NCBI GenBank assembly: GCA_005888755.1
Contig: VBBQ01000037.1
Coordinates: 119,648 to 128,491 of the forward strand
Length of the DNA stretch: 8,844 nucleotides
Direction of reading: 5' to 3'
DNA from: Candidatus Bathyarchaeota archaeon
GTDB lineage: Archaea; Thermoproteota; Bathyarchaeia; 40CM-2-53-6
In this document: piece after piece, positions 1,605 to 7,011 of the stretch
Layout of the letters: the number at the start of each line of letters is the position of its first letter
Position numbering within the stretch: the stretch's first letter is position 1
The notes under the pieces: model-generated
Seen by the model: only the letters and a program-made list of their open reading frames with translations
What the model was told of the DNA's origin: nothing
Database searches by the model: none
Position numbers and translations under genes: made by a program

Positions 1605-2675
1605 TCATGACCAGCCACTATTGACGGCTTTCGAGTAGGCCTTCCAGTAAGGGTCCACGCTGGGGTAATTGAGATTGCGCAGCCCCTTACTCGTTGTGGC
1701 CTTGCAACCTCGAAACTTGCGCGTTAGGCTCCCAACGATAGATGAAGGAATGCCCCCTGAAGATAATTTGGCCAATATCTTGTTCGTCTTTGTTGGTCTA
1801 GACGCGATGAGAAGACTGCCCTCGCTCAGACAAACCAATGGGTCTATCCTGAACAATTTGCACAGGTGTCGGGTCTCTTCGCTAATCTGAATCAGTTCTA
1901 GGTCTACAATTAGCCCAAGCTTTGATGCTGTCGTAAGTTCGATCAGGGCTGCGATTACCCCGCCTTCCGTCGCATCATGCATTGCTGTGACACCATGCTG
2001 TCGGACTCCTACTGTTGATGCCGTCAACGCGTCTTCGACTGTACTCACTTTGTAGAGGTAGTTCCAGGCTTTTTCAAAGAGGCTGTTTCCGAGAGCTCTC
2101 CTCGCTCTCTTTGGGAATGCTCGCGTCAAGATTGCCGTTGCTTCGATCGCCGCTCCTTTTGTCAGTATGATATCGTCTCCAGCTCGAGCCATGCCTGACG
2201 TCAGGTAACGGTCCTCGGGACCCGTGGCCATCACTACGCCTCCTCCAACAATCGTGTAGTCTATGCCCGGGTACCGTCCAGTGTGGCCACCGATGATGGA
2301 GAGCCCCAGCTGTTTGCATTCTTTGTGGAAAGATCTCCAATACTTCGCAAAGTTCGCGTCACTTAGGGTCGGTGGGAGGTTGAAGTCAAAAAGTCCGAAC
2401 TGAGGCGAAAATCCGCTCGTCGTGAGATCGGAGGCTAACAGGTGAACGGACAACCACGCTGAGGCTTCCGGGCCCAGCGACGGAATGTACGATAATGGAT
2501 CAGAAGTCGCGACCAGAACACGGCCGCGACCAAGTCGAAGAATTGAATTGTCAGCCCCGAAGGCAGGGCCAACGATTAGTTGCGATGATGAAGCGCCCAG
2601 GGACCGGTAGATGACGGATTCTAGGGTGCTTTGTCCCGCTTTACCGAGCCTCGGAGAACCACGCACAGCACGCAT
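1605..2675 (-). CDS. AIR synthase (PurM/HypE/ThiL-superfamily) protein under TPP-riboswitch control
   Basis: This 356-residue protein has the two-domain plan of the PurM/HypE/ThiL/SelD superfamily, ATP-dependent enzymes whose products pass through a phosphorylated or activated intermediate. The N-terminal half carries FGADNSIL (about residues 39-46), which aligns by eye with the GDDAA metal/ATP loop of ThiL and HypE. It is followed by TSDPLSYIPSLG, LLASDLTTSG (compare SDLAAMG of ThiL) and IIGGHTGRYPG. The C-terminal half carries ILTKGAAIEATAIL and AMHDATEGGV, the counterpart of the HypE DPTRGG glycine loop. The protein ends without the C-terminal cysteine that HypE uses to carry the carbamoyl group, so hydrogenase maturation is unlikely. 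It begins 10 bases after the stop of the riboswitch-controlled transporter gene, with no Shine-Dalgarno site visible, so the two are very probably cotranscribed. The link to thiamine is inference from the riboswitch and the ThiL kinship; substrate unknown. Confidence 0.85.
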   Translation of the reverse strand: MRAVRGSPRLGKAGQSTLESVIYRSLGASSSQLIVGPAFGADNSILRLGRGRVLVATSDPLSYIPSLGPEASAWLSVHLLASDLTTSGFSPQFGLFDFNLPPTLSDANFAKYWRSFHKECKQLGLSIIGGHTGRYPGIDYTIVGGGVVMATGPEDRYLTSGMARAGDDIILTKGAAIEATAILTRAFPKRARRALGNSLFEKAWNYLYKVSTVEDALTASTVGVRQHGVTAMHDATEGGVIAALIELTTASKLGLIVDLELIQISEETRHLCKLFRIDPLVCLSEGSLLIASRPTKTNKILAKLSSGGIPSSIVGSLTRKFRGCKATTSKGLRNLNYPSVDPYWKAYSKAVNSGWS

Positions 2676-2685
2676 AGAATCGGGC

Positions 2686-3348
2686 CTAATCGAAGTGCTG
2701 GACCCGAAACGCCCTCTGTGCTGCGACGATGAGAATCAGAGCCACTGGTATCCAAACAATGTCTATGAGAGTCGCGAAGTCGAAGGATGCGAGCCAGAAA
2801 CCTTGGACTAACCCTGAGGAGCTACAGCCTGGTTGGATGCAGTAAAACGCTGTAAACGAGTACACCGGCCAGTCGATCAGAAAGAAGACAACGGTCTCAT
2901 AGACGGTCGCTAGAACCATTCCGTAAGCGAGAATGCGTCTTGCCTTGTCTCTAAATCTGTGAATGATCAGAACCTCGGGCGCTCGCGCAAGCACTATTCC
3001 GGGGACGAAGGTTAGGGCCCAGATGGAGGGAGCTTCGCCGAAGACGAAAATGTTGATAGTCTCACCGATTGCTGAGCCAATAGCCGTCGACCAGAAGCTG
3101 ACTTTACGCGAAAATAGAACAGCGATAGCGAGATAGAAGGCAGGCGCGGCGGTAATTTCTCCAAGAGGATAAGGAAGCGTGAAACCAAACAAGACGTTTG
3201 ATATGATCGTTCCAACAGCCACGAGTGCCGAAAAAGCGCCGATTCTAGCGATGTCTAAGACCGGATTCGTCTTAAGCTCTCTGCGAATGGGAGCTGATGC
3301 CGACGGAGGAAGTGAATTCTGCGCTGACCATTCTGGATATTGATTCAT
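2686..3348 (-). CDS. ECF-transporter S component, probably for thiamine or a thiamine precursor
   Basis: A 220-residue integral membrane protein with about six hydrophobic segments (roughly residues 32-53, 63-80, 84-104, 108-128, 138-160 and 188-212) after a polar N-terminus of about 30 residues. Size, segment number and the GEITAAPAFYLAIAVLF and GSAIGETINIFVFG stretches fit substrate-binding S components of energy-coupling-factor vitamin transporters. Such proteins bind a vitamin and need a shared EcfT/EcfA module, which is not encoded in this window. The specificity call rests on the TPP riboswitch directly upstream, so thiamine, its pyrimidine (HMP) or its thiazole moiety are the candidates. 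The start at ATG 3348 is well supported: a GGAG site lies 5 bases before it. The PurM-like gene follows after 10 bases. Expression should fall when cellular TPP is high (inference from the riboswitch class). Confidence 0.82.
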   Translation of the reverse strand: MNQYPEWSAQNSLPPSASAPIRRELKTNPVLDIARIGAFSALVAVGTIISNVLFGFTLPYPLGEITAAPAFYLAIAVLFSRKVSFWSTAIGSAIGETINIFVFGEAPSIWALTFVPGIVLARAPEVLIIHRFRDKARRILAYGMVLATVYETVVFFLIDWPVYSFTAFYCIQPGCSSSGLVQGFWLASFDFATLIDIVWIPVALILIVAAQRAFRVQHFD

Positions 3349-3353
3349 TGTTT

Positions 3354-3357
3354 CTCC
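3354..3357 (-). promoter_or_regulatory. Shine-Dalgarno site of the S-component gene
   Basis: GGAG on the minus strand lies 5 bases ahead of ATG 3348. It is one of the few convincing ribosome-binding sites in the window, in keeping with a gene that has a long structured leader. A CTCC at 3385-3388 on the same RNA could pair with it, so the riboswitch could act by hiding this site; that is inference. Confidence 0.6.
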
Positions 3358-3398
3358 ATTCTTCGAGGAAGGGAAAACAAGGCAGGAGTCAGGCTTCG

Positions 3399-3496
3399 TA
3401 TCGTCCCTCCGCCGGCATTACCCGGATCAGGTTCAAAGGGTCGATGGCAAGCGAAGCCATCCTCTCAGCCGGGTTTATCCCAGCTCCCCGTTGATA
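3399..3496 (-). promoter_or_regulatory. TPP riboswitch (THI element)
   Basis: Read on the minus strand, this leader shows the signature TPP aptamer blocks in order. GGGGAGC opens the core, followed by the GGCTGAGAGG element (the CTGAGA bulge that binds the pyrimidine ring). Next are a variable GATGGC...GCCATC hairpin, ACCCTTTGAACCTGATC, then CGGGTAATGCCGGCGGAGGGA split by P4/P5. The P1 stem can close by TATC at 3493-3496 pairing with GATA at 3399-3402. It lies between a TATA box and the S-component gene, with about 50 bases from the aptamer to the start codon. That linker is pyrimidine-rich in part (CTTGTTTTCCCTTCC) and holds the GGAG site. Control could be by premature termination or by blocking translation; the sequence does not decide. 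TPP riboswitches are common in bacteria and less common in archaea. Confidence 0.95.
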
Positions 3497-3514
3497 GAAG
3501 GAACTAGGAACCGC

Positions 3515-3523
3515 GTATTTAAG
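3515..3523 (-). promoter_or_regulatory. Archaeal TATA box of the thiamine operon
   Basis: CTTAAATAC on the minus strand lies about 25 bases before position 3494. Transcription should therefore begin almost exactly at the first paired base of riboswitch stem P1. The box begins within 10 bases of the DUF35 stop codon, so the two transcription units are packed tightly and read-through from the thiolase operon is possible. Confidence 0.6.
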
Positions 3524-5426: not shown

Positions 5427-7011
5427 CTAGGCGAACATTGGAACTTTCCAGTTTATGGCGACGATTGCGAGGTCGAGGATGCCTATCCCTCCGTCGCCGT
5501 TCAGGTCGAGACTTGGGTTCCAATTAGGCGAACCAGGCACTCTGTTCCAGGCGAGTGCCAGAGTGGCCAAGTCTGAGATGTCCACCGCTCCGTCTAGGTT
5601 GATGTCGGGGTCCTTTGAAACCATACAACTAGTTTGATCACTGCTGGGATTCGTCAAGCACGATGCTCCTAACGCGCCGACGGTCGAGGGCATCACGAGT
5701 ACAAACTGTGGGGTTTGTCCGGAGCTAAACGAGAATGATACAGTGAAAGTCTTTGAGAATATTGTTGAGCCACTTGTCGCATTGGTTACGGTAACGGAGA
5801 CTGTGCCTGATACTGTGTTGCCGCTGACTGTCAGAGATGGGGTTATCGCAACGTTCACTCCGTCAAGGGTCAGGCTTTGGCCGGGGGGATCAGCCACTAT
5901 CAACTGTACGGTTATCGAAGGGAGGTTGCAGTTGCAGCCTCCGCCGGACACGGCTATCGTGGCTCCTGCCATGGTTGTGGCATTGGTCGAGACTGTCAGA
6001 ACGGTAGTTGCTGTGCCGAACGCTGGAAGCAAAACAGTGCTTGGAGAGATCGAGACTGTCGGAGGAACGGGACACGTAGGATTGCATAGGGTCAGAGGCA
6101 CGGCGACGCTTGCTTGGAGTGTTGCGTTAAAGGCATACGGCACGTGGCTTGTCAAGGTGATCGTGGAAGTACCTGCCGATCCCTTTGGAACCGAGAAACG
6201 GCTCGGGTTGGCTGTGAGGTCGAAGTAGGGTCCCACTAAGGCGTCTATTGTCGCGGCCCCATTTGTGACCCCTCCGCCGGATCCGAACATGTTGACAATG
6301 TAATCGCCGGTGGCAGCGTTCGAGAGAGCGGTGACATTGATGGTAGTGCTTGCGCTACCGCCGGAGGTTAGTGAAACGCTGGTTGGGCTCGTTGTTGCGG
6401 TGACAGGGACGGGGGATCCAACGCAGCCTTGGTTGACACATATGCTAATCGAGACTAAACCGGAATAACCGTTCACGCTAGATACCGTGAAGGTTGATCC
6501 TGCGGAAGAGCCTGGCAGGAGGCGGACTGAAGATGGACTGGCGGCGATCGAGAAGTCGGGGGACGGCAAGACGGTGACGGGTAATGTGATCGAGTGGACG
6601 ATCGAGCCTGTGGTACCAGTGATGGTTAGATTGTAGTTGCCGATTGCATACGCGTAGAAGCCGGCCACGACTTGGATCGAACTATTGGAAGACAGGCTCA
6701 CGCTGTACTGCTTGAAATGCCGGGTGGTGAAGCCGAAATCGATAGACGATGCGGCGGAATAGGTCAGAGAAATGGTGCCCGAGAAACCGTTGAGGCTGGT
6801 TAGGAGAAGGTGCTCCGTAGTATTTGCTTTCTGGAACATTGTTGATGTAAATAGTGTAGCTCTCCTTGACGGACAGAGATGATTGATCCGCGGAGAGACT
6901 GAAATCAGGAGCAATCCCACGAGCAGGTCTCACATAGACTGACGGAAATAGCATAGCTGACAGGAAAATCAGTACGAGAATAATCGTCGATGCGATTCTC
7001 AACTGATACAC
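5427..7011 (-). CDS. Secreted Ig-like repeat protein with C-terminal dockerin-like domain, frameshifted
   Basis: Joining two frames gives a protein of about 527 residues. It begins at GTG 7011 with a signal peptide (YQLRIASTIILVLIFLSAML), then PDFSLSADQSSLSVKESYTI, the start of a beta-sandwich repeat. The repeat continues in another frame as HLLLTSLNGFSGTISLTYSA. Further Ig-like repeats follow (DFSIAASPSSVRLLPGSSAG; FDLTANPSRFSVPKGSAGTS). The last 61 residues (5430-5612) form a type I dockerin-like pair of calcium loops, DINLDGAVDISD and DLNGDGGIGILD, each with Asp at loop positions 1, 5 and 12 and Asn at 3. Removing one C at 6833/6834 restores a continuous frame. The break may be an assembly error, a recent mutation or, less likely, programmed frameshifting. 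The protein is probably exported and binds a cohesin-like partner or calcium on the cell surface; no catalytic domain is visible. The uninterrupted downstream frame alone spans 5427-6920. Confidence 0.75.

Follow-up and report, generated by a model that had tools for sequence, protein, structure and literature searches.

What does a protein of the PurM superfamily do in an archaeal operon headed by a TPP riboswitch? The question arises from a window of 8,844 nucleotides (the whole stretch of DNA that was analyzed) from a soil archaeon, a Candidatus Bathyarchaeota member, the assembly of which amounts to ~2.0 Mb and is 95% complete. On the minus strand of this window, a TATA-like box is followed by a full TPP aptamer, then by a membrane protein, and then by the PurM-superfamily protein (Table 1). 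On balance, we favor the reading that this operon is a B1 salvage unit and that the PurM-like protein serves in this lineage as a thiamine kinase, converting thiamine to TMP.

Operon architecture and riboswitch

Table 1. Features of the operon, in window coordinates
Feature	Position	Strand	Remarks
TATA-like box CTTAAATAC	3514..3522	-	5' of the aptamer; read by eye, putative promoter element
TPP riboswitch aptamer	3387..3501	-	RF00059, 65.7 bits, full length
Leader from aptamer to start codon, possible expression platform	3349..3386	-	GGAG just before ATG; platform role putative
ECF S-component-like membrane protein, 220 aa	2686..3348	-	PF07155/DUF1393-like
PurM-superfamily protein, candidate thiamine kinase, 356 aa	1605..2675	-	PF00586 and PF02769, AF2 model, TPP association

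The aptamer scored above the gathering score of RF00059 (54.3 bits), with positions 1-105 all covered, and is the sole TPP switch in the host genome. The ATG of the PurM-like gene lies 10 bases past the stop codon of the S component. A sequence-only reading of the same DNA had described a full aptamer followed by an S-component gene and, 10 bases on, a 356-residue PurM-fold protein; this was confirmed by RF00059, by the AIRS and AIRS_C profiles, and by the coordinates, with the middle gene classed as S-component-like. Among named sequences, the closest orthologues of the PurM-like protein (88-89% identity) belong to MAGs that bear the labels Crenarchaeota 13_1_40CM and Candidatus Bathyarchaeota BA_23.

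The leader between the aptamer and the start codon may act as the expression platform. When the aptamer was enforced in RNA folding, GGAGAAACA, 5' of the AUG, was predicted to be mostly paired; in the free RNA fold, AAACAAUG was open. Such a fold switch would suit translational repression, in which TPP binding to the aptamer would shut off the operon. The short leader hairpin was no more stable than shuffled sequences (z -0.02), and pairing over the start region was not clearly kept among the relatives compared.

Two further genes of the window lie on the same strand. A small Cys-rich, zinc-finger-like open reading frame (1230-1577) stands directly 3' of the PurM-like gene, with weak Pfam matches below the cut-off, and a 497-residue surface-type protein (5427-6920) ends in a C-terminal type I dockerin domain (PF00404), a domain that is unusual in archaea.

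Family, fold, and motifs of the PurM-like protein

Both AIRS domains (PF00586 and PF02769; 41.3 and 59.9 bits, respectively) were found above their cut-offs, whereas the profiles of the characterized enzymes were not reached: 60.2 bits for ThiL (TIGR01379; cut-off, 184.15), 54.6 bits for HypE (TIGR02124; cut-off, 251.6), and 52.7 bits for SelD (TIGR00476; cut-off, 125). An AF2 model built from 18 relatives (pLDDT, 87.9) matched HypE (Z 33), SelD (27.8), ThiL with AMPPCP and TMP (27.4), and PurM (20 to 24), with sequence identities of 12 to 22% over most of the protein. Among solved structures, HypE proteins and not ThiL are closest by both profile and structure; the comparison with these two enzymes that the sequence-only reading had proposed was made at the level of the overall fold.

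The family is marked by the motifs GxDN, TSDP, SDLxTSG, GGHTG, HDATEGG, and SEGS, and the Asp positions of the metal site are near-invariant across it. The window protein carries GADN, GGHTG, and HDATEGG, lacks the GDD, GGDT, and SDGL of ThiL, and terminates in AVNSGWS; that GADN stands in place of GDDAA, that GGHTG is present, and that a HypE-type C-terminal Cys is missing had all been noted correctly from the sequence. A tree of 143 sequences placed the window family in a clade of its own (SH-aLRT, 99), distinct from ThiL, from a HypE-like paralogue, and from a third group that we call PurM2; the outgroup branches of this tree are long, and how the groups branch relative to one another is uncertain. 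The HypE-like paralogue is present in most class genomes (33% in the host). Score, motifs, and tree together rule out that the window protein is an ordinary ThiL.

Conservation of the riboswitch association

Within our class sample of 201 genomes, the PurM-like gene formed a close clade of 18 loci. In 15 of them, an aptamer precedes the gene on its own strand (13 above the Rfam cut-off and two below), and a sixteenth locus (L016) has an aptamer interrupted by N; the remaining two (L007 and L023) are truncated by the ends of their contigs. Outside the class set, 25 of 69 more distant loci, from Bipolaricaulota, Calditrichota, KSB1, Zixibacteria, Eisenbacteria, Bacillota, Bacteroidota, Bathyarchaeota, and others, also have an upstream aptamer. 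The neighbors of these distant members include, by similarity, ThiE, ThiL, ThiD, and ThiC, as well as ThiT and ABC importers. At L221, the NCBIfam models for ThiE, ThiL, and ThiD scored above their cut-offs, confirming these assignments, and a distant member adjoins TenA at L219, an sfuA/ThiB-family thiamine importer at L206, and an NMT1/THI5-type importer at L185.

A single TPP switch in 2 Mb, together with a pairing that recurs in 16 of 18 relatives, indicates that the arrangement is not due to chance; the chance estimate for the switch-gene association was negligible, as calculated with the relatedness of the genomes ignored. The recurrence of TPP switches beside homologues, put forward as a check in the sequence-only reading, was thus borne out in both the class and the distant loci. 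That reading had also named two observations that, taken together, would speak against it, namely a complete ThiL in the host and the lack of a conserved association. The first was found, but the association proved to be strongly conserved.

Some gene neighborhoods depart from this picture. At L240 and L256, family members devoid of a TPP switch stand beside ThiI/MnmA-like tRNA thiolation genes, which hints at a different role in a subclade. A trio of a SAM methyltransferase, a window-type PurM-like protein, and ThiE occurs in Bipolaricaulota, Kryptonia, Bathyarchaeia, Nitrososphaeria, and Chryseobacterium (L185, L187, L188, L189, L191-L194, L203, and L246; also L018 and L019). In the ThiE-like protein of L018 and L019, the usual pyrophosphate-binding Arg and Lys motifs seem, by eye, to be missing.

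The S component and its exchange with ThiT

The window S component is a remote relative of PF07155 (13.8 bits; cut-off, 26.7), and homologues in the same position exceed this cut-off (L022, 30.5; L019, 44.7; L188, 38.8). It gave no NCBIfam match, so the cut-off of TIGR02357 (ThiT) was not reached. For its AF2 model (pLDDT, 78.9), the best Foldseek matches were ThiT, in first place, RibU, and PanT, with a probability of 1.00 and TM-scores of ~0.5-0.65 but weak E-values of 0.014 to 0.12; the match to 4hzu was likewise weak (E 0.018). We take the family to be reminiscent of HmpT.

The gene between the switch and the PurM-like gene is ThiT in three genomes (G079, G082, and G067), where TIGR02357 was above the cut-off (L010, L015, and L020), and, by similarity, also in a fourth (G097; L182, on the contig of L011). 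In the window's family, ThiT occupies the same site and the same gene neighborhood as the S component that it replaces, and the tree requires three such exchanges, in three lineages. ThiT is the known thiamine S component, and its presence in the relatives indicates thiamine import. The cargo of the window S component is probably thiamine or a close derivative, which it would import together with a putative ECF module encoded elsewhere.

A second PurM-type subfamily shows a parallel arrangement. Among the 83 operons of the class sample in which a TPP switch precedes ThiT, PurM2 follows ThiT in 56, and in 21 of the 56 a KaiC-family ATPase (PF06745, by Pfam) lies between the two genes. PurM2, too, falls below the ThiL, HypE, and SelD cut-offs. 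The two PurM groups thus occupy the same place. The KaiC-like genes were seen at L043, L046, L053, L068-L071, L077, L078, L080, and others. One locus (L066, genome G175) has two TPP operons in succession, the first encoding an S component and a methyltransferase and the second ThiT and PurM2.

The thiamine pathway in the host and its class

The sequence-only reading had proposed checking whether genomes with this protein lack canonical ThiL or TPK, and here the two enzymes parted ways. ThiL was above the cut-off in 164 of the 201 class genomes, the host included, whereas TPK (PF04263) was above the cut-off in none of the 201; 6 of 14 control reference genomes were positive. ThiC, ThiN, and ThiE were not found above the cut-offs in the host or in the searched genomes of the window's family, nor was genuine Thi4 detected there, the weak partial matches reaching at best E ~1e-9 compared with 1e-76 or better for true Thi4. 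Given these results, an imported thiamine compound must be the source of TPP, and ThiL needs TMP. If thiamine is imported, a thiamine kinase would be missing from the pathway as searched with the profiles for TPK, ThiL, ThiC, ThiN, ThiE, and Thi4, and the PurM-like gene lies next to that of the importer under a TPP switch. A recent marine survey likewise took ThiL together with a transporter as a sign of salvage in cases where the key biosynthetic enzymes had not been detected (PMC12236431).

Elsewhere within the order to which the window belongs, ThiW (TIGR02359) is under TPP-switch control together with a P-loop-like protein (GEIKTGKT) that has no Pfam match and is possibly a thiazole kinase (L036, 1611-2779; L040, L042, L050, L052, and L065).

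Proposed function and alternatives

The missing kinase is most plausibly the PurM-like protein. In the model that we favor, it would transfer the γ-phosphate of ATP onto the 5-hydroxyethyl group of the thiazole half, yielding thiamine monophosphate, and the separate canonical ThiL of the host would add the second phosphate to give TPP. The presence of ThiL is thus a requirement of this model. The idea of a salvage kinase is supported by the conserved association with TPP switches, by the exchange of the S component with ThiT, and by a missing thiamine-to-TMP step in a host with ThiL and no detectable TPK. The suggestion of the sequence-only reading that the protein is a thiamine-salvage enzyme, plausibly a kinase acting on the imported compound, is accordingly well supported by context; that the protein is a kinase, and that thiamine is its substrate, we infer from the same context.

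The distant members complicate a uniform assignment. TPK was above the cut-off in 7 of the 38 genomes reached through them, and many stand beside ThiE, so there is no obvious need for a thiamine kinase in these cases. One possible generalization, which we advance tentatively, is that members of the family, found in archaea and in several bacterial phyla, phosphorylate the 5-hydroxyethyl-thiazole group, making TMP from thiamine where TMP synthase is lacking and HET-P where ThiE is present, and filling the first phosphorylation step where ThiL occurs but TPK does not; PurM2 may perform the same task independently. Both proposed reactions would phosphorylate the same hydroxyethyl group, and one family could therefore carry out both.

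The same distant operons lend some weight to the view that the protein phosphorylates a precursor for ThiE, most likely hydroxyethylthiazole (HET to HET-P, replacing ThiM), and that thiamine kinase activity in the window's lineage is an offshoot. Many distant members share operons with ThiE, ThiD, ThiL, and TenA, in which ThiM is usual; full-length ThiM was found in none of the 38 distant-member genomes (best short partial matches, E 4.5e-9 or weaker), and the members from TPK-bearing genomes all adjoin ThiE or ThiD. For some bacterial members with TPK and ThiE, a role as HET kinase is a live alternative. For the family as a whole, it is unlikely: HET-P would lead nowhere in the host and the window's family, where no ThiE or ThiN was found, and the partner in three lineages is ThiT, a thiamine importer. 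An HMP or HET kinase in this host is likewise disfavored, as neither ThiE nor ThiN was found.

Somewhat more doubtful is the view that the protein catalyzes a different ATP-dependent reaction on a thiamine derivative that has been taken up, such as PurM-like activation with ring closure or repair, or a step linked to the methyltransferase. HypE and PurM activate a carbonyl and are not plain kinases, HypE is the nearest solved relative, and members with ThiE repeatedly have a SAM methyltransferase as a neighbor. This methyltransferase is, however, absent from the operons of the window's family, and the conversion of thiamine to TMP is the simplest gap in the host pathway.

Membership in the superfamily and regulon of ThiL could also suggest that the protein is an additional TMP kinase or, as a pyrophosphokinase of PurM fold, converts thiamine to TPP in one step, but the ThiL motifs are lost and canonical ThiL, already in the host, persists across the class, making this improbable. 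That the protein is a hydrogenase maturation factor of the HypE type, or that its gene is an unrelated passenger, is very improbable; the closeness in fold to HypE speaks for it, but the hydrogenase role was rejected on the missing C-terminal Cys, the low TIGR02124 score, and a recurrent thiamine context with no hyp genes within the window.

Significance

We found no paper in the open-licence literature linking TPP riboswitches with AIR-synthase-like proteins, nor any on thiamine salvage in Bathyarchaeia; the one paper naming both 'TPP riboswitch' and 'hypE' deals with overlooked genes in Shigella and appears to be unrelated. Within that literature, we thus found no prior description of this PurM-superfamily family. 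For thiamine-requiring archaea with ThiL and no TPK, we found no enzyme assigned to the route from imported thiamine to TPP, and a candidate family can now be named, one that is cloneable and riboswitch-linked in many lineages, including one cultured bacterium, Chryseobacterium defluvii. If the proposal is correct, predictions of B1 auxotrophy would be corrected for many uncultured archaea and bacteria, and the PurM superfamily would gain a thiamine-level kinase.

Comparison with known systems

ThiL (AaThiL, 3c9t; AbThiL, 5dd7) shares with the window family the PurM superfamily, two AIRS domains, Asp at the ATP/metal positions, and the pathway, as well as the same operon in some bacteria. In ThiL structures, the two domains enclose TMP between them, and Mg2+ is located at the phosphate that is transferred (PMC6416309). 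The window family differs in having GxDN for GDD, GGHTG for GGDT, HDATEGG for SDGL, and SEGS for GEEYEL, in forming a separate clade, and in coexisting with canonical ThiL in the host. HypE, the carbamoyl dehydratase of hydrogenase maturation, is the closest solved fold (17% identity) and has the DATxGGV motif in common with the window protein, which, unlike HypE, lacks the C-terminal Cys, has no hyp genes nearby, and is under TPP-switch control. The selenide water dikinase SelD shares the GGH(T/S) motif and would also have ATP phosphate transfer in common with the window protein; its gene context is different, and the window protein scores far below its cut-off. ThiT/HmpT-type ECF S components likewise directly follow a TPP switch, and the weak structural matches of the window model point to a similar fold, but the window S component, a remote PF07155 relative only, fails the ThiT profile. 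Finally, ThiM, ThiK, and TPK are the known kinases for HET and thiamine. Their folds are unrelated to the PurM type; TPK was not found in the class, and full-length ThiM was not found in the 38 distant-member genomes; what these kinases share with the window protein is the proposed reaction and the position in salvage.
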